NCBI GenBank assembly: GCA_026709365.1
Contig: JAPOTD010000062.1
Coordinates: 66,326-121,825, forward strand
Direction of reading: 5' to 3'
Length of the DNA: 55,500 nucleotides
DNA from: Gammaproteobacteria bacterium
GTDB lineage: Bacteria; Pseudomonadota; Gammaproteobacteria; Pseudomonadales; Azotimanducaceae
Shown here: one piece after another, positions 5,393-15,552 of the stretch
Layout: each line of letters begins with the position of its first letter
How positions within the stretch are numbered: the stretch's first letter is position 1
The notes under the pieces: model-generated
Seen by the model: only the letters and a program-made list of their open reading frames with translations
What the model was told of the DNA's origin: nothing
Database searches by the model: none
Program-made: the position numbers and the translations under genes

Positions 5393-7216
5393 TCAGGGCT
5401 TGTTCCGGTCGCCGTGGAAGCGCCGTTGGGCGTCTCCGAACAGCGCCGCCGCCTGCCGGGCTTGAGCCATGTCCGGCTCATCCAGCATGAGCGATTCGCC
5501 GTCGTAGCGCCAACCGAGGAGCCCGCCGCCCCGCGCCAGCACGGTCAGGTGCCTGCGTCCGAGCACGCCGATGTGGTAGTCCTCCTCCGCCGGGGCCAAC
5601 TGGTCCTCTCCCGACAGCAAGCTGCGCCCATAGAAGCGTTCCGTGGACGCAACGCCGAGCAGGTCGAGCAGCGTCACCGGCAGGCTCATGGTGGAGCCCG
5701 TGGCCGCCATGGCCTGCGGCGCCAATCGGGCCGGGTTGTAGAACACTAGGGGGACCCGGAAGTTGTTGGCCGGCAGCAAGGTCGGACCCGGCCTCAACGG
5801 CCCATGGTCGGCCACAATGACCAGCAGCGTGTCCTCAAACCAAGGACGGCGCTGGGCTTCGCGAACGAACTTGCCAAGCGCCCAGTCGGCGTAGGCCAAG
5901 GCGTAGTCCTGACGGCGCTGGTCATTGGGGAAAGGCACCCGGCCCGCCGGAAAGTCAAAGGGATGGTGATTGGTCACCGTCAGGGTACACAGCATCACCC
6001 GGCCATGGCGTTCGGTGCGGCGGTCCATTTCGACCAGCACCCGGTCAAGCAGAATCTCGTCCGCCACCCCCCAACTGGTCTCGAACCAAGGATCCGGGAA
6101 ATCGTAGCGGCTCAGCATGGCATCGAAGCCGATGCGGCGCCAGTAGTCGAAGAAGTTGGTGAAGTCGGGCCAGCCGCCGTAAACGAACGCCGTGTGAAAC
6201 CCGGCCCCAGCCAGAACTCTGGGCAGCGAGGGCAGCCGCTCGACGCCATCCCTTTGGGGCGTGGCCAAGCCGGGCAGCGGCGGATAGCCGTGCAGGATGG
6301 CCTCCATGCCCCGGAGGGTGTGGGCGCCGGTCGCGTAAACCCGGTCGAAATGGATGCCCTTGGGGGCAATCGCGGCCAGCTGCGGCGCGTACTTGCGCCG
6401 CAGCTCCGAGTTCCACCAAGCCTGACCGCCGAAGGATTCCTCGATGACCAGCAGCAGATGCTTGAATTCAGCAGGCGGCGGCGCGACGGGAGCCTGCGGG
6501 ACAGGAGTCGGCGCGACAGGACTCGGCGCGACAGGACTCGCGGGCAAGGACGGCAGCTCAGGCCGCTCCGGCTGCCAGTAGGCATCCTCCCACCGGCTTT
6601 GGTCAAAGCTGGCCGCGTGCAGCATCTCCAGCCAGCCGTTGCTCGCCAAGTGGTTGAGCGAACGCTCCGGGGTGATCGGGCCCCGGTAACCGCCATCGCT
6701 GGCCACAAGAACGGCGGTGAGGGCCAGCAAGGCCAAGAAGCCCCTTCGGTCCCCCCCGCTGAAGGCCGGAGGAAGCCAGCCACTCATCCACCGCGCCGCC
6801 GCCCAACCCGCAGCCGCCAACGGCACGAGGAGGAAGGCAAAGCCCACCATCTCGTGCAAAAAGGCCAACACCTCCAATGGATGGCGGATGTAGCGGACGA
6901 CCACGATTCCGGCTCGGGCAAAAAAAGTCATCCAGTACAGAAGCTCACCGACCATAACCAAGGCCACTGCCGTCATGGTCAGCCCTATCCACCAAACGGC
7001 GAGTCGGCGGCCCAGCAGAAAGCCCGCACCAAGCCAGCCGCAGATCAGCGTCCCGGCTTGGGCGTCGCTCAGGACGCCAAAGAGGAAGGTTTGCAACCAA
7101 TCGCCAATCGAGGGGGCAACGAAGGATCCGGCCGGGGTCAACCACGCCATGGCCAGCCGCAAAGCCAACCCCAGCGCCATCCAAAGCGCCGCCAGACGCA
7201 GCCAGAAGCCGATCAT
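5393..7216 (-). CDS. LtaS-like membrane-anchored sulfatase-superfamily enzyme
   Basis: A 607-residue protein with about five transmembrane segments in the first 175 residues, a Pro/Ala linker (VAPSPVAPTPVPQAPVAP, encoded by a 15-bp tandem repeat), then an alkaline phosphatase-fold catalytic domain. Signals are HLLLVIEESFGG (first metal site), the probable nucleophile Thr in TGAHTLRGMEAILHG, and the metal ligands in IVADHGPLRPG. This is the architecture of lipoteichoic acid synthase-like and phosphoglycerol/phosphoethanolamine transferases, which act on the periplasmic side. In a Gram-negative it probably modifies glycans or lipids; the substrate is unknown. Its ATG overlaps the stop of the MMPL gene (ATGA), making it the last gene of the operon. 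Confidence 0.85.
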   Translation of the reverse strand: MIGFWLRLAALWMALGLALRLAMAWLTPAGSFVAPSIGDWLQTFLFGVLSDAQAGTLICGWLGAGFLLGRRLAVWWIGLTMTAVALVMVGELLYWMTFFARAGIVVVRYIRHPLEVLAFLHEMVGFAFLLVPLAAAGWAAARWMSGWLPPAFSGGDRRGFLALLALTAVLVASDGGYRGPITPERSLNHLASNGWLEMLHAASFDQSRWEDAYWQPERPELPSLPASPVAPSPVAPTPVPQAPVAPPPAEFKHLLLVIEESFGGQAWWNSELRRKYAPQLAAIAPKGIHFDRVYATGAHTLRGMEAILHGYPPLPGLATPQRDGVERLPSLPRVLAGAGFHTAFVYGGWPDFTNFFDYWRRIGFDAMLSRYDFPDPWFETSWGVADEILLDRVLVEMDRRTERHGRVMLCTLTVTNHHPFDFPAGRVPFPNDQRRQDYALAYADWALGKFVREAQRRPWFEDTLLVIVADHGPLRPGPTLLPANNFRVPLVFYNPARLAPQAMAATGSTMSLPVTLLDLLGVASTERFYGRSLLSGEDQLAPAEEDYHIGVLGRRHLTVLARGGGLLGWRYDGESLMLDEPDMAQARQAAALFGDAQRRFHGDRNKP

Positions 7217-9786
7217 GCAGCAGGTCGGCGGCGCACCGCGGGCGCCGGTTCGGACATCCAGGACAGCAGGACCGGCAGCAGGAACAAGGTGAAGGCCAGC
7301 AGCAGCGAAATCGCCACGGCCAGCAAAGAGCCGATGGATGCGGTGCCGGCGTGGGGCGACAGCGACAGCGCGGCGAAAGCGCCCACGGTGGTCAGGGCGC
7401 TGAGCACCACCGCCCGGGGCGTGCTCGAATGCATCAGATGGGCAACGCCGCCCTCGCCTCGATAGCGCTCCACCACGTGCACCCCGCCATCGACGCCCAA
7501 GCCAAAAATCAGCGGCATGACCAAAATGTTGGCCATGTTGAGGGGCGCATCGAGCAGCACCCCAAGGGCAAGGGTGAACAGCACCGCCAAGCCCAAGGGC
7601 ACCAGCACCAGCACGGCATGGCGCAGGCTGCCCAGCATGACGAGCAGCACAATGAAAATGGTCGCCAATGCGAAGGCCATGGCCTGCTGGAAGCTGGCCA
7701 CCACCACGCCGCCAACGCCCCGTTCGATGACCGGGCGCCCGGTGGCGCTTGGCGAGATGGCCTGCACGGCGTCAATGAAGCGATTCATCGTCCCCACGTC
7801 GGCAACGTCCTCGACTGGCAGGACGATGCTCAGGCGTTCTCCCGACTCGCTGGTGAGCCGGTTGCGAACTTCGGCCGGCACCGCCGCCTCCGTGACCGGG
7901 CCAACCTGCAACGCCCGGCGCAGCCAATCAAGCTCCTCGACCAAGCTCGCAACCACACCCTGCTGCCAGACCAGCAACTGCGGCACCGGACCATTGGCCA
8001 ACTCCCGCAGAGCGGCCTCCAAGCCAGCGAAGCGGCTGCGTTCGTCACTGGCTTCAATGGCCTCAAGCAGGCTGCGGAGGCTGGCCAGCAGTTCCCGGTC
8101 GGTCGGTGGGTCGAGCTGCCGCAGCGGCGCCAGGGCGCTGGCCAGCATCCACTGCAGATCCTCCAGCACATAGAGCTTGTCCGGCTGGTCGTCCGGCACG
8201 AAGTCCGCCAAAGTGATGATCGAGCCAACCTCCGGCAACGCCGCCAAGCGCTCGATGGTCTGGGCGTCCTTCCCCAGCAGCAAAAGCGCGTAGTCCGTCG
8301 CCTCCCCGTCGCGCTGCAGGCGGCGCAGGGTGCGCATGGAGTCGGTGGCCGGGTCCTTGAGCGCCAGCACGCTGTAGTCGAAGCGCGACTGGCTGGCGAG
8401 GGCCAAGGCCATCAGGGCGGTGACGATGATGAGGCCCAACACCAGGCGGCGATTGGCGATGAGGGCCTCAACCATGCGCTGGCCCGACGGCAACGGCAGC
8501 ACGTGGGGCTTGATCGGCCCCGTCACGGCGAAGAACGCCGGCAACAGGGTGACGGCGAGGATGCCAGCGATGGCCATGCCGCCGGCGGAGATGATGCCGA
8601 GGTCGGCCAAGCCGCGGTAGTCGGTAGGCCAGAAGCCCAGGAAGCCCAGGCCGGTGGTCAGGGTGCAGATGAAAATCGCGCCGCCGACGCTGCGGGTGGT
8701 TGAGTCCAAGGCCCGCACCGCATCGCCGGCGCCGACGTTGACCGCCTCCTGGTAACGCAGCGAGAAATGGATCGCAAAGTCCACGCCCAGGCCGAAGAAC
8801 ATCACCACGAACACCACCGAGAGGGTGTTGTACTCGCCCACGGTCAGCATGGCGTAGGCGGCGGTCATGCTGATGCCGACCGCCAGCATGGCGAAGGTGG
8901 CAATGATGATCTTCAGCGAGCGCACGCCGACCACCAGCACGACCGCCAGCAGGGCCAAGGCCAGCCAACCGGCCAGCTGCACGCCGCCGACCGCCGCTTC
9001 GATCTCCTCAAAGGCCAGCGCCGCCTCCCCGGTAATGCCTACGCGAACCTCCGGCGGCGCGCCAACCTGGGCCACGATGGCACGCAACTCGGCCACCATT
9101 TCGGCATTGGCGAGCGTCTCGCCCACATCGATATTGCTCTTCACCGAAATGACGCGGTGCCAAGTCCCATCGGCGCTGAAGAACTCGTTGGCCCAATGCA
9201 CGGTGGGGTCATCACCCGCCAACAGCGCCGCCGCCGATTCCTCGAACAGCGCCACCACGTCGTCGAACCCGCTCGGCGGCTCGTTCCCAATGCCTTCTTC
9301 CAGCAGGCCGAGCAAGCCGCGCAGGCTGGGATCCTCGGCGACCGCGGTCAGCCAGGGCTGCGCTTCGGCCAAGTTGGCGGCCACTTCGTCAACGTCCTCC
9401 ACATCGGCATAGAGCAGCGCATGGTCGCGAAAGAACGGATGGCTGCCGCCAGCGTAAACCGCCCGAAAGCGATCCGGGCGGCGGCGCAACTCGGCCTCGA
9501 TCTGGCGCGCCACGTCCTCCACCTGCTTGAAACCGCTGCCGGAAACCACGACGACGGCAGTTTTCACGTGATCGGGGAAAGCCGCCTTAAAACGGTCGAA
9601 GTCATCTCGCCAAGACGAATCTTGGTTAATCAGGTCGCCGAGGTCGGCGTTCATTCGATGCCGGTCAACCGCCACCCAGGCGGAGGCGCAGGCCAGCAGG
9701 GCCAAGACTGCCAGCACCGGCCAAGCGTGGCGGGCAACCCAACCCACCCACCTGGCCAGCGCCAGGATCAGCCAGCGTTCGATCAT
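7213..9786 (-). CDS. hpnN: MMPL/RND-superfamily lipid exporter, HpnN-like
   Basis: An 857-residue inner-membrane transporter with two RND/MMPL halves. Each half is a first membrane helix, a large periplasmic domain, then a five-helix bundle. The N-terminal helix is followed by MNADLGDLINQDSSWRDDFD and the FRAVYAGGSHPFFRDHALLY region, which resembles HpnN, the hopanoid-associated transporter that moves lipids to the outer membrane. The helix-4-type motif GLGVDFAIHF and its counterpart GLGVDGGVHV in the second half are clear. No hopanoid synthesis genes are visible in the window, so the cargo could be another lipid. It is encoded between MlaA and the LtaS-like enzyme. Confidence 0.85.
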   Translation of the reverse strand: MIERWLILALARWVGWVARHAWPVLAVLALLACASAWVAVDRHRMNADLGDLINQDSSWRDDFDRFKAAFPDHVKTAVVVVSGSGFKQVEDVARQIEAELRRRPDRFRAVYAGGSHPFFRDHALLYADVEDVDEVAANLAEAQPWLTAVAEDPSLRGLLGLLEEGIGNEPPSGFDDVVALFEESAAALLAGDDPTVHWANEFFSADGTWHRVISVKSNIDVGETLANAEMVAELRAIVAQVGAPPEVRVGITGEAALAFEEIEAAVGGVQLAGWLALALLAVVLVVGVRSLKIIIATFAMLAVGISMTAAYAMLTVGEYNTLSVVFVVMFFGLGVDFAIHFSLRYQEAVNVGAGDAVRALDSTTRSVGGAIFICTLTTGLGFLGFWPTDYRGLADLGIISAGGMAIAGILAVTLLPAFFAVTGPIKPHVLPLPSGQRMVEALIANRRLVLGLIIVTALMALALASQSRFDYSVLALKDPATDSMRTLRRLQRDGEATDYALLLLGKDAQTIERLAALPEVGSIITLADFVPDDQPDKLYVLEDLQWMLASALAPLRQLDPPTDRELLASLRSLLEAIEASDERSRFAGLEAALRELANGPVPQLLVWQQGVVASLVEELDWLRRALQVGPVTEAAVPAEVRNRLTSESGERLSIVLPVEDVADVGTMNRFIDAVQAISPSATGRPVIERGVGGVVVASFQQAMAFALATIFIVLLVMLGSLRHAVLVLVPLGLAVLFTLALGVLLDAPLNMANILVMPLIFGLGVDGGVHVVERYRGEGGVAHLMHSSTPRAVVLSALTTVGAFAALSLSPHAGTASIGSLLAVAISLLLAFTLFLLPVLLSWMSEPAPAVRRRPAA

Positions 9787-9869: not shown

Positions 9870-10625
9870 TCATGGCGGGCCGTCGGTCTCGTCAAAGAAG
9901 TCGTCGAAGTCGTCCAAAGGCGGATCACCGTCAAAGATTTGGAACTGGCGACGCTGGTAGTAGGCCTCGCGGGTGAAGGCGTAGCGATCCAAGGCAGCGG
10001 CGTCACGGGCATCGGTAAGCGCAAGCGCATCCGCCCGGGTGGCCAACACATCGATGCCGGATGCCCAAATCGGATAGCCGCCGCCCACCAGCAGCCGCGG
10101 CGCAAAGGCGCGGATGGCCATGCTCGGCAGGTCCCGCAGCGTCGATGGCCCCACCAAGGGCACATAGACGTAGCGGCTGTTGCGCCAGCCCCAAACCGCC
10201 AGCGTCTGGCCGAAGTCCTCGTTCTGGGCGGCGAACCCGGCCGGCGTGGCCACGTCGAACAGCCCGGCGACGCCAACGGTGCTGTTGAGCAGCAAACGCA
10301 TCATGTCGGTGCCGCCGCGCTTCGGCTTGCCTTGCAGAAAGCCGTTTATGGAACTGTCCACGGTGCGCAGGTTGGCGAAGAAATTGACCACCCCGGCCTC
10401 CACCGGCCGCGGCACGAGATCCAGGTATCCGCGCGCCACCGGCTCAAGCAACTTGTTGTCCAACGCTTCGGACAGCTCGAAGGAGGCCCGGTTGAAGCCC
10501 GGCGCCCGGTCATAGGCGCCATGGTCCGACCCCTCCAAGCCAGCGCAGGCGGTCTGCAGCACCAGGATGCCGGCAGTGGCCAAGATCCTGAACGCCCTAG
10601 GCCGGGACGGTAATGAGGCGTGCAT
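9870..10625 (-). CDS. mlaA: MlaA/VacJ-family outer-membrane lipoprotein
   Basis: A 251-residue lipoprotein with a lipobox-like LQTAC near residue 27. The MlaA core is clear: PGFNRASFELSEALDNKLLEPVARGY, NFFANLRTVDSSINGFLQGK, LLLNSTVGVAGLFDVA, and NEDFGQTLAVWGWRNSRYVYVPLVGPSTLRD. MlaA sits with porins in the outer membrane and removes mislocalised phospholipid from the outer leaflet. Here it is beside an MlaC-like carrier and an MMPL pump rather than the MlaFEDB ABC transporter. It is separated from the MMPL gene by 83 bases with no visible feature. Confidence 0.93.
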   Translation of the reverse strand: MHASLPSRPRAFRILATAGILVLQTACAGLEGSDHGAYDRAPGFNRASFELSEALDNKLLEPVARGYLDLVPRPVEAGVVNFFANLRTVDSSINGFLQGKPKRGGTDMMRLLLNSTVGVAGLFDVATPAGFAAQNEDFGQTLAVWGWRNSRYVYVPLVGPSTLRDLPSMAIRAFAPRLLVGGGYPIWASGIDVLATRADALALTDARDAAALDRYAFTREAYYQRRQFQIFDGDPPLDDFDDFFDETDGPP

Positions 10626-10646
10626 GGCTGCTCTCCCGATTGAGTT

Positions 10647-11231
10647 TCAGTGCCAAAGTTCGGCGATGCTGGCCTCGATGTCGGCCACCAGTCCGTCATG
10701 GCCCGCCGCGCGAATGATGCCCGCGTAGTCCGCGCGGCGCAGGGACAGGTCGCTGACCCCATCGGCGACCACGTTGAACGCCTTGCCGCCGCGGAAGTAG
10801 TAATCGAGATTGACCGGCTCGTCGTTGCTGCGGTTCAGCAGGGTCTTGACCACCGGCCCGGTGCTGGCCGTCACGGTTTCCGCTCGAACGAAACTCTGGC
10901 CGCTGTAGCTGTCGAAGCGGTCGGCGTAGGTGGCCGTGATGAGCCGGCGCATCAGATCCACGAATGCCGAACGGCGCTCTTCCGCCAAGGACCGCCAAGA
11001 GGCGCCTAAGCTGATGCGGGCGACGGCTTCGAGGTCAAAAAATGCGGTCACCGCAGGCTCAAGCAGGGCCGCTCGTTGCGCAAAGCCCTGGGTTTGCATC
11101 GCGTCAAGCAAAACGGCATGGAAGGCGTCCACCGAAGCGGCCACCTCGCCGCCCGCCGGATTGGCCCAGGCGGCAGGCCCTGGCAGGCCGGCAAGGCCGC
11201 AGAGCGCAAGGCCGGTCAGCAGGCGCTTCAT
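10647..11231 (-). CDS. MlaC/Ttg2D-like periplasmic lipid-binding protein
   Basis: A 194-residue protein starting at the ATG that overlaps the DctM stop (ATGA), with signal peptide MKRLLTGLALCGLAGLPGPAAWA. The rest follows the MlaC/Ttg2D fold, which carries phospholipid across the periplasm: FDLEAVARISLGASWRSLAEERRSAF, ATYADRFDSYSGQSF, and the later strands VNLDYYFRGGKAFNVVADGVSDLSLRRADYAGIIR. A homologous protein (HpnM) accompanies HpnN in hopanoid clusters, so this could equally be HpnM-like. It lies between the TRAP permease and mlaA in one operon. Confidence 0.88.
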   Translation of the reverse strand: MKRLLTGLALCGLAGLPGPAAWANPAGGEVAASVDAFHAVLLDAMQTQGFAQRAALLEPAVTAFFDLEAVARISLGASWRSLAEERRSAFVDLMRRLITATYADRFDSYSGQSFVRAETVTASTGPVVKTLLNRSNDEPVNLDYYFRGGKAFNVVADGVSDLSLRRADYAGIIRAAGHDGLVADIEASIAELWH

Positions 11232-12541
11232 CGCACCAGCGCCAAGCTGAACCAAGGCACGTAGGTGATGACCAGCAGCGCCAGCAGCAGCACCACCATG
11301 AACGGCCAGCAGGCGGCATAGAGCGTCAGCACCGGCTTCTTGAACCGGTAGCTGGCAATGAACAGGTTCATCCCCACCGGGGGCGTGAAGTAGCCAATCT
11401 GCATGTTCGCCAAAAACACAATGCCCAAGTGAACCGGATCGATGCCGTAGCCCACCGCCACCGGCAGAATCAGGGGCACCATGATGACCAACGCGGCGAA
11501 GATGTCCAACAGGGCGCCCAAGGCCAGCAGCAGGATGTTCAACAGCGCCAGAAAGGCAATTGGGCTTTCGATGTGCGCCTGCATGAAGTCAAACAGGCGC
11601 TGCGGCACTTCGGCGTCAACCAGGAAGTTGGTGAACGCCAGGGCGACGCCGAGAATCAGCAGAATGCCGCCCACCATCACCATGGCCTTGACCGCCACTG
11701 CGGGCAAGTCGCGCAGCTTGAGGTCACGGTACAGCAGCGTCTGGGCGATGGTGACGTACGCCGCAGTCACCGCCGCCGCCTCGGAGATGGCGAAGTAGCC
11801 GGAGTAGATGCCGCCGAGCACCACCACCGGCAGCGGCAGCTCCCAACGCGCCGCCACCAGCGCCGCCCGGATGCGAGCGCCGTCAAGGCCTGCGGTGCGG
11901 CCGTGACTTGGACCGGCAAGCGGCCGCGCCGCGTTGGCCGCGCCGCGCCGCGCCCATAGCGTCCAGCCGATCAGGCAGCCCAGCATGAGCAGCAGGGGCA
12001 TGAGGCCCGCCTTGAACAGATCGACGATGGTGAACGAGGGGCCCACGTCGATCTGCTGGGCAACAACCCCGTAGAGGATCAACGGCACCGACGGGGCCAG
12101 CAGCAGCCCTAGGCTGCCGGAACTGGTGACCAAACCCAAGCTGAAACGTTCGCCGTAGCCGGCCTGCCGCAGCGCCGGCAGCAGCAGCGCCCCAAGCGCC
12201 ACGATGGTGACGCCGGAGGCGCCCGTCAAGGCGGTGAACAGGGCGCAGGCGGTTAAGCTGACGATGGCCAGGCCACTCGGCAGCCAGCCGAAGAGGCTTT
12301 CGACCAAGGCCAGCAGCCGTTGCGACGTGTTGGCCTGCGCCAGCACGTAGCCCGCATAGGTGAACAGCGGCAAAGCCACCAGCAGCGGGGTGTCAACAAT
12401 GCGGTAAACCTCAATCGGCACCGCCGCCAAGTCAATGCCCGAGGCCAGAAAGCCGAGCATGGCGGCGCCCATGAGCACGGCGACCAGCGGCGCGCCCGCC
12501 AAGGCGGCTGCCAGCAGCACAGCGATGCCCAGGGCGGTCAT
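11228..12541 (-). CDS. dctM: TRAP transporter large permease (DctM)
   Basis: A 437-residue polytopic inner-membrane protein of about 12 helices, the ion-driven translocation subunit of a TRAP transporter. Typical segments include PLLVALPLFTYAGYVLAQA, SLTACALFTALTGASGVTIVA, and GIVFLANMQIGYFTPPVGMNLFIAS, the conserved DctM C-terminal region. The ATG at 12541 overlaps the DctQ stop, which fixes the start; the frame is open further upstream but inside dctQ. The gene is coupled to the MlaC-like gene downstream by another ATGA. Confidence 0.95.
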   Translation of the reverse strand: MTALGIAVLLAAALAGAPLVAVLMGAAMLGFLASGIDLAAVPIEVYRIVDTPLLVALPLFTYAGYVLAQANTSQRLLALVESLFGWLPSGLAIVSLTACALFTALTGASGVTIVALGALLLPALRQAGYGERFSLGLVTSSGSLGLLLAPSVPLILYGVVAQQIDVGPSFTIVDLFKAGLMPLLLMLGCLIGWTLWARRGAANAARPLAGPSHGRTAGLDGARIRAALVAARWELPLPVVVLGGIYSGYFAISEAAAVTAAYVTIAQTLLYRDLKLRDLPAVAVKAMVMVGGILLILGVALAFTNFLVDAEVPQRLFDFMQAHIESPIAFLALLNILLLALGALLDIFAALVIMVPLILPVAVGYGIDPVHLGIVFLANMQIGYFTPPVGMNLFIASYRFKKPVLTLYAACWPFMVVLLLALLVITYVPWFSLALVR

Positions 12542-13002
12542 GGCGGATCGAGGGCGTACAAAAGGTAGCGCAGGCCGATCACCGCGGCGCCCACGGGCAG
12601 CACGGCTTCGCAGGCCCAAGCCGGCACCGAGGCGAAGGCGATGGTTTCGTCCTCATACTCAAAGCGGACGAATCGAGCGCTGTGCCAGGCGAAAACGCCC
12701 ATCACCGCGCAGGTGAAGGCGTTGGCGAAACGCTTCAGCGGCCGCTGCCAGCGGGGCGGCGCAAATCGGGCCAAAACATCGATGCGGATGTGGTCGTCGT
12801 TGCGGGAGGCCACCATGGCGCCGATCAGGGCCACCCAAATCACCAGCACCCGCACGAGGGCGTCGCCCCAAAGCAGGCCGGTGTCGAACAGGTTGCGAGC
12901 GATCACCTGATAGGCCGCCAAGGCGATCATCGCCGCCAGAATCAGCGCCAGCATCCCATCCTCAATGCGCCGCAGCACCTTCAGAACAGGCTCCAAAGGC
13001 AT
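12538..13002 (-). CDS. dctQ: TRAP transporter small permease (DctQ)
   Basis: A 154-residue protein with four membrane helices, partner of DctM. The pattern MLALILAAMIALAAYQVIARN, then LLWGDALVRVLVIWVALIGAMVASRNDDHIRIDVLAR, is typical of DctQ, including the W...E/D...R motif and the DHIRID loop. The start at ATG 13002 gives the usual length and lies seven bases after the dctP stop. The reading frame continues open upstream but would run inside dctP. Confidence 0.93.
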   Translation of the reverse strand: MPLEPVLKVLRRIEDGMLALILAAMIALAAYQVIARNLFDTGLLWGDALVRVLVIWVALIGAMVASRNDDHIRIDVLARFAPPRWQRPLKRFANAFTCAVMGVFAWHSARFVRFEYEDETIAFASVPAWACEAVLPVGAAVIGLRYLLYALDPP

Positions 13003-13009
13003 GGCCCCG

Positions 13010-14044
13010 TCAATCCGAGGAGGCGTTCGGGCGGCCCGCCCTGAAGTCGCGCAGATGCCCTTGCAATGCATCGTAAAGGCCGACGGACACGTACTCCTCC
13101 TCGACCAGGCGCATGGTGGCCCGCTCGGCCAGCCGACGCCACTCCGCCAGTTCCCCATCCGAGGCGCTGCGCCATTCGAGGCCCTGGTTGGCGAGCGCCG
13201 ACGAGGCCTGTTCGTGGTCGCGGCGGCTGCGCGCGTTGACCTGCCCGACCACCTCGCCCATGACCCGGCGCACCACCGCTTGGTCCGGTTCGGCTAGCCG
13301 GTCAAAGCGCCGTTTGTCCAAGGCGAACAGGCCATAGACGTAGATCAGCGGCACGTCCAGGACATGCGACACCCGCGTATGCCACTGCAGGGCCACGGCA
13401 CCGACCGGCGGGGCGGCGACGCAGTCGATCAGTCCGGTCTGCAGGCCGCCGAGCACATCGACAATGGGCAGCGGAATGGGTGCTACGCCGAACGCCTGCA
13501 GCGCTCGGGCCGAGCCTGGGTCGTTGTCCGGCACCCAGACCTTGCGCATTCTGACGTCGGCAACGCTGCTCACCGGCTCCTGCGTCATGGCGTAGGCGAA
13601 GCCAACCTCAGCCAGTCCCAAGGCCACAAAGCCCTTGGCCTCCAAGCCGGCCAGCAACTCGGCGTCCAGGCGCTGGCGCACGTAGTCCACCTCAGCGCCG
13701 GAGCGAAACGCCATGGGCAGGTTGTACAGGCCAATGTCAGGATAAACCTGCACCAAGGCGCCGGCCGTCACCACCGCGCCGTGCAGCTGGCCAATGCGAA
13801 TCTTGCGCAGCACCGCCTTGTCGTCGCCCATCACCCCGCCTGGGTAGAACTTGAAGGACACGCGGCCCTCAGTTTCCGCCGCCACGCGGGCGCCGCCCTC
13901 GCGCAGCATGTCCATCCAAACCGAGCCTTCAGGGGAGAGCGCCCCGATCTTGAGCGCCTGCGCGCCGCAAATGGCGCTCCACAATCCAAGCAGCAGCGTC
14001 AAAGCCGCCCTCAAGCCGGTTGCTCCCAAACTAAAAGTACGCAT
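13010..14044 (-). CDS. dctP: TRAP transporter substrate-binding protein (DctP)
   Basis: A 344-residue periplasmic binding protein with signal peptide (LRAALTLLLGLWSAICGAQA). DctP features: LKIGALSPEGSVWMDMLREGGARVAAETEGRVSFKFYPGGVMGDD, the IRIGQLHGAVVTAGALVQVYPDIGLYNLPM segment, and MRKVWVPDNDPGSARALQAFGVAPIPLPIVDVLGGLQTGLIDCVAAPP. The Arg that usually binds a substrate carboxylate would lie in the VRMRKVWVP region. DctP proteins paired with TatT tend to serve hydrophobic carboxylates, so a lipid-like acid is a reasonable guess. The start overlaps the tatT gene by 14 bases. Confidence 0.93.
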   Translation of the reverse strand: MRTFSLGATGLRAALTLLLGLWSAICGAQALKIGALSPEGSVWMDMLREGGARVAAETEGRVSFKFYPGGVMGDDKAVLRKIRIGQLHGAVVTAGALVQVYPDIGLYNLPMAFRSGAEVDYVRQRLDAELLAGLEAKGFVALGLAEVGFAYAMTQEPVSSVADVRMRKVWVPDNDPGSARALQAFGVAPIPLPIVDVLGGLQTGLIDCVAAPPVGAVALQWHTRVSHVLDVPLIYVYGLFALDKRRFDRLAEPDQAVVRRVMGEVVGQVNARSRRDHEQASSALANQGLEWRSASDGELAEWRRLAERATMRLVEEEYVSVGLYDALQGHLRDFRAGRPNASSD

Positions 14045-14894
14045 CGGCGGTTTCCAGCAGGCTTTGGGCGCGCCGCTTGGCGACGGCGTTGAGGAGGATC
14101 AGTTCCGGCGCATCGACTTCGGCGGCCAGCACTTCGTTGAGCAGTTCGTCATGCAGGGGGCGGTCAAAGACCAGCCGGGCGTACTGCTCGGCAAACATGA
14201 CCTGGGTGAGCAAGTGCCGACCCTCGGCGAGCGCCAAGGCGCGCTCGAAGTGAAAGCGGCCAACTTCGGGCCGCCCCCCCAAGGCGGGGGGCACCAAGGT
14301 CTCGAAGACGCCTAGGTACAGGTGCGGCCCGCCGTGGTCATGGCTCTCGTGCAGTTCGGCGATGCGGCTCATCAAGAGCTTCACTTTTCCCAAGTCAGCT
14401 ACGGCGTTGAAGTCATCGCTGTTGGCCTGCATCCAAGCCGACCAAGCGGTCGCCAAGCCATAGGCCAGCGGCACGTCCGCCTTGGTGAGCGCGGCGGTCC
14501 ATTGCTCAAACGCCTCGAAGGGCCTTGCGGCAATGCCGCAACTGTCCTGCCGCTCCACGCACAGCGCCCGTTCGGCCAGCGCCCGGCCCTTAGCCGCCAG
14601 CAGCCGCGCCCGCTCGCCGTCGGCGACGAAGGCCCCGGCGTAGGCGGAGTTCAGCAGCGCCGCCTGGGAGAGCAGGACCGGGTTGTCGGGACTGCTCTTG
14701 AGCAATCCGTCGATCAACAGCAGGAAGGCCGGCGCACCATCGCGCACCATGTCCACGTCCGGGTTTTCAAGGATCGCCGCCGACAGGTCGCCGGCCAAGC
14801 CCTCCACCGCCGAGGACATCAGCGACGCGCAGCCGGCCAGCGAAGCGGGCAGCGCCAGCCACAACGCCGCCCGCGCAATCAACCTGCCGCCCAT
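14031..14894 (-). CDS. TRAP-associated TatT-type lipoprotein
   Basis: A 287-residue lipoprotein. The ATG at 14894 gives MGGRLIARAALWLALPASLAGC with a good lipobox (LAGC, Cys22). The body is helical, TPR-like: PAFLLLIDGLLKSSPDNPVLLSQAALLNSAYAGAFV..., and HGGPHLYLGVFETLVPPALGGRPEVGRFHFERAL. This matches the TatT (TRAP-associated extracytoplasmic) family, which in Treponema forms a trimer that docks DctP and is thought to pass hydrophobic ligands. The frame is open upstream to 15173, but that part overlaps the peroxiredoxin gene and is shadow. It is the second gene of the operon. Confidence 0.88.
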   Translation of the reverse strand: MGGRLIARAALWLALPASLAGCASLMSSAVEGLAGDLSAAILENPDVDMVRDGAPAFLLLIDGLLKSSPDNPVLLSQAALLNSAYAGAFVADGERARLLAAKGRALAERALCVERQDSCGIAARPFEAFEQWTAALTKADVPLAYGLATAWSAWMQANSDDFNAVADLGKVKLLMSRIAELHESHDHGGPHLYLGVFETLVPPALGGRPEVGRFHFERALALAEGRHLLTQVMFAEQYARLVFDRPLHDELLNEVLAAEVDAPELILLNAVAKRRAQSLLETADAYF

Positions 14895-14904
14895 CGCCCG
14901 CCGG

Positions 14905-15477
14905 TCAACCCCCGGGAGAAGCGCCCACCGCCTCAAGGACCGCCTCCATGGGCGGCCGCCGACGATAGCCGGGCACCGCAAGCTTGGCGGCAATGACCCC
15001 ATTCGGGTCAATGTGCAGCACGCCCGGGTGGGCGACGCCGTAGGCGAAGTCCCCTGGCTTGTAGTTCTCGTTGAGAACGTTGAAGGCGACGGCGTGCTTG
15101 GCGTCCTCATCGGCAAGCAGCGGGTAGCCCAACTGCCGTTCGGCATGAAAGGCGGCCAGCACCTCAGGGCCATCGTAGGTCATGGCCGCCACCTTGAGGC
15201 CGACCGCCTCGAATTGCGAACGCCACTCCTCCAGTTGAACCAACTGGTGTTTGCAAAAGGGTCACCAGTCGGCCGAGCGGACCAGGAACAGCAGCAGGCC
15301 CCGCTCGCCCGCCAAGGAATCCAGGCTGCGCCGCGCGCCGCTCTGGTCCTGGGCGGCAATGGCCGGCGCCAAGGCGCCCACGGGCAAGCTCCAGCCATCG
15401 GCGTACTCATCGGCCAGCGCCGCCGGGGTCCACCCGGCCATGACGATGGCCGCAAGGGCACACATCAGTCGTTTCAT
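14905..15477 (-). CDS. Secreted peroxiredoxin-like protein with in-frame UGA (probable selenocysteine)
   Basis: Two same-frame segments separated by one TGA (15262-15264) make a single 190-residue protein if UGA is read as selenocysteine (codon 72). The start at ATG 15477 gives a signal peptide, MKRLMCALAAIVMAGWTPAALA. The redoxin fold follows: GERGLLLFLVRSADW-U-PFCKHQL, then VGLKVAAMTYDGPEVLAAF and GYPLLADEDAKHAVAFNVLN. Cys homologues in this AhpC/TSA-like family have SADWCPxCxxQL, so Sec replaces the peroxidatic/N-terminal Cys and Cys75 would be its UxxC partner. A SECIS-like hairpin lies directly after the UGA. A pseudogene is less likely because the frame is intact on both sides and conserved. 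First gene of the operon; probably detoxifies peroxides in the periplasm. Confidence 0.88.
15231..15264 (-). promoter_or_regulatory. Bacterial SECIS-like hairpin after the in-frame UGA
   Basis: On the coding strand the UGA at 15264-15262 is followed, after 14 bases, by CCAGTTG-GTT-CAACTGG (15247-15231), a perfect 7-bp stem with a 3-base loop. The loop begins with G, 22 bases after the UGA. This fits the published bacterial SECIS pattern: apical loop about 16-37 bases downstream of UGA and a G among the first two loop bases. SelB binding would recode this UGA. Confidence 0.75.
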
Positions 15478-15552
15478 GCGATCACTCCGATCAATCGACT
15501 CATCAAGGGTGCGCATCGTCGGAGGCATGGGGTATGCTTGTCAAGGTGCCTG

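Follow-up and report, generated by a model that had tools for sequence, protein, structure and literature searches.

A probable Sec-Cys redox selenoprotein with a peroxiredoxin-like fold, encoded ahead of TatT-type TRAP transporter genes in a gammaproteobacterial genome

A gene on the minus strand of the window (the whole 55,500-nucleotide stretch of DNA analyzed here) very probably encodes a true selenoprotein, in which UGA at codon 72 is decoded as selenocysteine (Sec) by way of a SECIS-like hairpin and the product is most likely a Sec-Cys redox enzyme, probably of the periplasm. Read from 15477 to 14905, the frame extends over 190 codons, with codon 72 at 15264-15262 as its sole internal TGA, and is terminated by a further TGA at 14907-14905 (Table 1). 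When the internal TGA is translated as a residue, the protein begins MKRLMCALAAIVMAGWTPAALADEY... and the Sec lies in the context ...RSADW-U-PFCKHQ.... A standard table 11 reading cuts the gene in two, an 88-residue piece that starts at an ATG at 15528 and a second piece of 112 residues. This ATG lies in frame upstream of 15477, and the nearest relative, L107, has the same upstream stretch; either 15477 or 15528 may be the start codon. The first-pass annotation had described an otherwise intact frame split by one TGA, in DNA where TGA is the ordinary stop. Both statements were borne out: a read-through of 190 codons is far beyond chance, and 8 of the 13 genes checked, the selenoprotein gene included, end in TGA. 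As had also been noted, the N-terminus of the read-through translation is signal-like by eye (residues 1 to ~22), suggesting that the protein is exported. A crude hydropathy rule, which accepts any hydrophobic 12-mer upstream of the domain and ignores the start codon, flags 84/97 loci of the TGA form and all 12 of the Cys form.

Table 1. Positions of the selenoprotein gene, its recoding elements, and the genes that follow it in the window
Feature	Coordinates	Strand	Evidence
Predicted Sec-containing peroxiredoxin-like (AhpC/TSA) protein, 190 residues, Sec at 72	14905..15477	minus	PF00578 E 8.2e-24, alignment
In-frame TGA, predicted to be read as selenocysteine; residue 72, first of UxxC	15262..15264	minus	conserved codon
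Cys75 codon, second residue of UxxC pair	15253..15255	minus	invariant in 39/39 aligned rows
SECIS-like hairpin: 7 base pairs, 3-nt loop GUU, 14 nt after TGA	15231..15247	minus	folding, covariation
TatT-like lipoprotein, TRAP T-component; ATG 10 nt after selenoprotein stop	14031..14894	minus	PF16811 E 2.5e-68
TRAP substrate-binding protein DctP	13010..14044	minus	profile search
TRAP small permease DctQ (start approximate)	12538..13008	minus	profile search
TRAP large permease DctM	11228..12619	minus	profile search
MlaC/HpnM-like protein (start approximate)	10647..11234	minus	HpnM 139.8 bits (cut-off 160.1), PF05494 E 1.3e-29
MlaA lipoprotein	9870..10625	minus	PF04333 E 1.7e-58
HpnN-like RND (MMPL) transporter	7213..9786	minus	TIGR03480 727.4 bits (cut-off 751.85)

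The gene was compared codon by codon with that of L107, a Pseudomonadales metagenome-assembled genome (MAG) in which 156 of 190 residues are identical. With the signal region and the last four codons left out, codons 23-71 gave a dN/dS of 0.088/0.40 and codons 73-186 one of 0.081/0.48; whole-codon differences came to 12 silent and 13 replacing changes ahead of the TGA, and 24 and 21 after it. The low dN/dS past codon 72 shows that selection maintains the protein sequence there too, and purifying selection acts on both sides of the codon. Decay elsewhere in the frame, which the first-pass annotation had named as grounds for abandoning a selenoprotein, was thus looked for and not seen.

When 293 genomes of the order were searched with the protein, 29 loci were recovered in 28 genomes, the window's included. 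Seventeen of these (16 genomes, again with the window's) carry one TGA, each on codon 72, and the other 12, in 12 genomes, have the Cys codon TGC or TGT at that place; the alignment with Cys homologues proposed in the first-pass annotation sets both forms on the same codon. A DNA pattern scan around W-TGA-P-[FY]-C in the named-genome collection, from which about one chance match was expected by our own arithmetic, returned at least 118 stretches, and all 118 are relatives with TGA on codon 72 (tblastn E 3e-102 to 1e-11). As four accession sets occur twice, these stretches represent no more than 114 assemblies. Both searches together give TGA on codon 72 in at least 135 loci (17 + 118), with at least three genomes counted twice (L066, L158, and L171 are, by length, the same contigs as G200, G081, and G003). 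By their record titles, nearly all pattern loci are MAGs, from Acidobacteria, gamma-, alpha-, and deltaproteobacteria, Planctomycetes, Verrucomicrobia, Gemmatimonadetes, Armatimonadetes, Acidimicrobiia, and Dormiibacterota, as titled; one locus, L152, bears a strain name, Tautonia sociabilis GM2012.

Of 398 genomes sampled evenly across the phylum, nine held a relative at E 1e-25: three with one TGA (including the window's), five without a stop, and one with TAA. The TAA, reported inside the match of G570:C1:1153788-1154276, could be a plain end or an oddity. Two gene copies stand in tandem in L118 (5477-6022 and 6117-6623), and G039 has two copies on separate contigs, C48 and C55. In L084 (1693-2173), a relative with the Sec site, the match goes on in another frame, perhaps through a frameshift. 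A quick tree of 108 relatives, from which the short row L067 was dropped and to which L142-L179 do not belong, needs two Sec/Cys changes; because most of its rows were chosen for TGA, the number and direction of such switches are not interpretable.

The source genome is 95.7% complete and holds selA, selB, selC (tRNA-Sec), and selD. The first three lie together on contig C17 (L009 coordinates: selA, 10080-11438; selB, 11435-13312; tRNA-Sec, 13347-13439) and selD on contig C87, with profile scores of 496 bits for selA (cut-off 268), 413 for selB (242), and 258 for selD (125). A near-complete genome without sel genes, another finding that had been said to count against Sec, is accordingly not what we have here. 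Upstream of selA-selB-selC on C17 are XdhC- and MobA-type molybdenum-enzyme-like genes, named by eye (L009 7045-8043 and 8100-8792). Across the order, selA was found in 16/16 genomes with the TGA form, in 5/12 with the Cys form only, and in 3/20 without a relative, the last being 20 of the 265 genomes without a match and not a random draw (Fisher P value of 7e-7 for 16/16 versus 8/32 and of 7e-4 for 16/16 versus 5/12). A second selenoprotein gene is present in the same genome, a SelW-like gene (PF10262) with one TGA in a CGIU motif (L212; G000:C44:8722-8931). A search of the whole genome with an Fdh-alpha model found no formate dehydrogenase above the cut-off, the best match reaching 281.9 of 666 bits.

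Downstream of the TGA lies a hairpin in which, counted from the T of the TGA, positions 18-24 pair with 28-34 around a loop at 25-27. Its small apical loop beginning with G and its place just after the TGA are those of a bacterial SECIS element. Among the 17 TGA sequences from the protein search, which were picked by no DNA pattern, pair 18-34 is Watson-Crick in 16, in four types (GC, CG, TA, and AT); pair 21-31 is Watson-Crick in 16 with one G-U; pair 22-30 is kept in all 17, as CG or TA; and every one of the 17 loops starts with G. Of the 96 distinct TGA sequences first examined, 92 form the five core pairs (19-33 to 23-29) and 96 have a G-first loop, versus 2/12 and 3/12, respectively, in the Cys sequences, a small sample from one order; the hairpin is missing in 10 of these 12 Cys relatives. 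Once the model had been fixed, a held-out set of 33 further distinct TGA sequences showed the core pairs in 33/33 and the G-first loop in 32/33. The innermost pair, 24-28, is poorly kept (6/17 and 51/96).

The pairing covaries. In a permutation test, pairs 21-31, 22-30, and 23-29 each gave 0/2000 permutations as good as the observed, pair 24-28 was not beyond permutation (320/2000 as good), and pairs 19-33 and 20-32 hardly vary and so say nothing on covariation. When codons were shuffled synonymously, all six pairs formed in 8.4 sequences on average and in 19 at most, versus 51 observed. These statistics draw on relatives that are not mutually independent, and columns 19-21 are not independent evidence in the 118 pattern loci, which were selected for TGA plus C-A-R there. 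The energy of the hairpin alone is mildly unusual (z of -1.98; 5/200 shuffles fold as well), and three longer stretches after the TGA are no more stable than their shuffles, of which 44, 74, and 137 of 200 fold as well. The loop, GUN (window 15238-15240, residue 80), codes for Val in 93/96 Sec forms and 1/12 Cys forms; the SECIS hairpin thus seems to fix a Val residue of the protein.

The read-through protein matches PF00578 (AhpC-TSA) at 84.4 bits (cut-off 26) and PF08534 (Redoxin) at 45.5 bits (E 8.4e-12; cut-off 26.6). Its AlphaFold model (pLDDT of 95.3, pTM of 0.91) has AhpE of Mycobacterium tuberculosis as its best solved fold match (TM of 0.80). In a 39-row alignment, made of the window and 38 relatives hand-picked from 108 others, with 4 Cys forms and numbers shifted by 23, the invariant positions are Arg67, Trp71, Sec/Cys72, Cys75, Gln78, Leu82, Asp102, Asp123, Gly152, and Arg174, so that the UxxC motif, with U or C at 72 and C at 75, is present in every row. 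Once the presumed signal peptide is set aside, the protein contains no Sec or Cys other than Sec72 and Cys75. No NCBIfam model, peroxiredoxin models included, reaches its cut-off on the window protein; a SelL-related model scores 39.2 bits against a cut-off of 120, and all 39 rows match it at E 0.001.

Peroxiredoxins have a Thr or Ser three residues before the peroxidatic Cys, plus a catalytic Arg. Aligned with two PrxQ-type proteins (2cx3 and 2ywn) and with AhpE, the window protein has Cys75 at the peroxidatic Cys and Sec72 at the Thr/Ser three residues before it. Pro151 falls on the catalytic Arg of 2cx3 and 2ywn and on the Ala of the AhpE R116A mutant; in the 5enu alignment, the Arg lies one column off, beside a gap. 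In the 2cx3, 2ywn, and AhpE alignments, both residues that mark a peroxiredoxin proper are thus replaced, and Pro151 presumably recalls the cis-Pro of thioredoxins. The first-pass annotation had put the TGA at the redox Cys of the family. Relatives do have Cys at codon 72, but Sec is the first residue of the UxxC pair, and the place of the peroxidatic Cys is that of Cys75. The protein therefore resembles AhpE and PrxQ in fold and in the position of Cys75, and differs from them in lacking the active-site Thr/Ser and Arg and in having Sec three residues before the Cys. With TlpA/ResA it shares a WCxxC-type site and probably export, the first Cys of the ResA motif WCPHC aligning with Sec72; unlike them, it has Sec for that Cys, and it scores 31.2 bits with the curated ResA model, whose cut-off is 170. 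Sequence searches do list ResA; the 50 best fold matches are mostly peroxiredoxins, without ResA. Overall, the fold looks peroxiredoxin-like and the active site thioredoxin-like.

The selenoprotein gene leads a minus-strand run of TatT, DctP, DctQ, DctM, HpnM/MlaC-like, MlaA, and HpnN-like genes (Table 1); a promoter scan upstream of the selenoprotein gene found none. The head of an operon for TRAP and lipid transport had been proposed for it. The lead position stands and the TRAP part is conserved, but the lipid part mostly is not. Among the 11 other family genomes that carry the gene, TatT-DctP-DctQ-DctM follow it on the same strand in 7 (G039, G105, G133, G157, G179, G200, and G279), with TatT within ~0.4 kb; the set is absent behind the gene in G076, G220, G240, and G260 and behind the second G039 copy. 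Eight wide loci representing the order's other families, 4 of the TGA form and 4 of the Cys form, all lack the set behind the gene. Among the at least 118 pattern loci, with stretches of at most 8 kb and many of them too short, TatT lies behind the gene in 11 (L066, on the G200 contig, L076, L085, L103, L107, L116, L118, L122, L155, L161, and L178); most of the relatives inspected have no TRAP genes next to it. TatT itself is common in the order without the selenoprotein: of the 293 genomes, 77 have a match at E 0.001 and 68 have one over the cut-off. Because the link is absent in many relatives and TatT is common without the selenoprotein, the TRAP link is a lineage trait and not a requirement of either. 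Lipid-transport genes also come after the TRAP set in L085 (HpnM and MlaA) and L116 (HpnM, MlaA, and HpnN). However, no HpnM/MlaA-like gene was found behind DctM in any of the seven family loci (3.0-5.4 kb behind DctM, E 1e-3); the lipid-transport genes are not part of a conserved unit.

A TatT disulfide was considered as a specific substrate. In all 16 loci where TatT stands next to the selenoprotein gene (counting the window; L043 and L066 are the same contig), it has two Cys spaced five or six residues apart. The pair is not diagnostic, being present also in 25/26 TatT loci of the order without a selenoprotein in their ~1.5-kb flanks (drawn from the 30 best of 79 matches, 4 of the 30 being linked), and this candidate was rejected. 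A Cys pair with a spacing of about six residues, as in the window TatT, is common to 29 of the 30 best of 79 TatT matches in the order. TatT next to DctP, DctQ, and DctM, the arrangement that defines a TPAT transporter, is found in the window. The same adjacency is described in the sections available of the reports on Treponema TatT-TatP (PMC5812351) and BstC (PMC10942540), which depict TatT-type TRAP systems with hydrophobic pores and clefts and an undetermined substrate; unlike these, going by the same sections, the window set is led by a selenoprotein gene.

Two explanations of the TGA do without selenium. It could be a nonsense mutation or a misread Cys codon, as might be supposed from a window known from one draft genome and from the Cys at this site in 12 of 29 relatives. 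Against this, the sel genes are present, selection is similar before and after the TGA, and the same codon is TGA in at least 135 loci from several phyla by record titles, which makes sequencing error very unlikely; we regard a pseudogene or an error as scarcely credible. Readthrough with another amino acid, by a near-cognate tRNA for Trp or Cys, would likewise agree with Cys in the 12 relatives. It leaves unexplained the presence of selA in all 16 TGA-form genomes of the order and a hairpin kept in TGA forms and missing in most Cys forms, and it sits poorly with a codon that ends most of the genes checked. This is a slightly better prospect than decay or error, and still a very improbable one.

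A more substantial rival accepts the selenoprotein and makes it chiefly a peroxidase, with Cys75 or Sec72 reducing hydroperoxides, perhaps of envelope lipids. The peroxiredoxin fold, the match of Cys75 to the peroxidatic position in PrxQ-type proteins and in AhpE, and the lipid-transport neighbors in the window all speak for it. Against it are the replacement of Thr/Ser and Arg by Sec72 and Pro151 in the 2cx3, 2ywn, and AhpE alignments, the failure of every NCBIfam peroxiredoxin model to reach its cut-off on the window protein, and the poor conservation of those neighbors. We hold a mainly peroxidatic role to be possible, and somewhat improbable. Given a thioredoxin-like site with the sole Sec and Cys of the protein, a Sec-Cys selenenylsulfide cycle is favored. 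On this view, SelB and tRNA-Sec would read the UGA at codon 72 as selenocysteine, with the hairpin 14 nt downstream, inside the coding sequence, serving as the bacterial SECIS element, and the product with its signal-like N-terminus would probably go to the periplasm. There, Sec72 of Sec72-Pro-Phe-Cys75 would most likely attack the substrate, a protein disulfide or a peroxide; Cys75 would resolve the intermediate through an internal selenenylsulfide, which a periplasmic reductant would then reduce. In this lineage, the selenoprotein is probably made together with the TatT-type TRAP transporter.

As the first-pass annotation stated, Sec-containing AhpC/TSA-like proteins are already known. Prx-like UxxC selenoproteins appear, in the parts of the reports available, in the Sargasso Sea set of 2005 with 22 sequences (PMC1088965) and in the GOS set of 2008 as Prx-like 1 (225 marine sequences, PF00578) and Prx-like 3 (68, PF08534) (PMC2398784). 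A 2026 table, as excerpted, lists a Prx-like thiol:disulfide oxidoreductase and a Redoxin family protein as predicted with high confidence and not among the known ones (PMC13188914). The window gene fits this kind: by their published descriptions, these proteins share with it an AhpC/TSA or Redoxin domain, Sec first in UxxC, and Cys relatives, and the same excerpts mention no TRAP/TatT neighborhood for them. The recurrent place before a TatT-type TRAP transporter may be new. A limited search, judged by titles and abstract openings, showed no account of a TRAP transporter tied to a selenoprotein; among the papers listed, PMC11422209, which reviews selenium cycling in soil, contains both words.

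The TGA form occurs at 118 or more pattern loci and goes without an NCBIfam model at cut-off, as judged on the window protein. One idea is that the selenoprotein acts in the periplasm as a dedicated redox partner of the TatT-type TRAP transporter, coupled in some lineages to hopanoid or phospholipid traffic. We consider this unlikely, the more so because lipid-transport genes are absent behind the TRAP set in 7/7 family loci. If it were true, the selenoprotein would keep a transporter component or a hydrophobic cargo reduced, and envelope transport would be selenium-dependent. The TRAP/TatT linkage offers a handle on the role of the Prx-like UxxC selenoprotein class.
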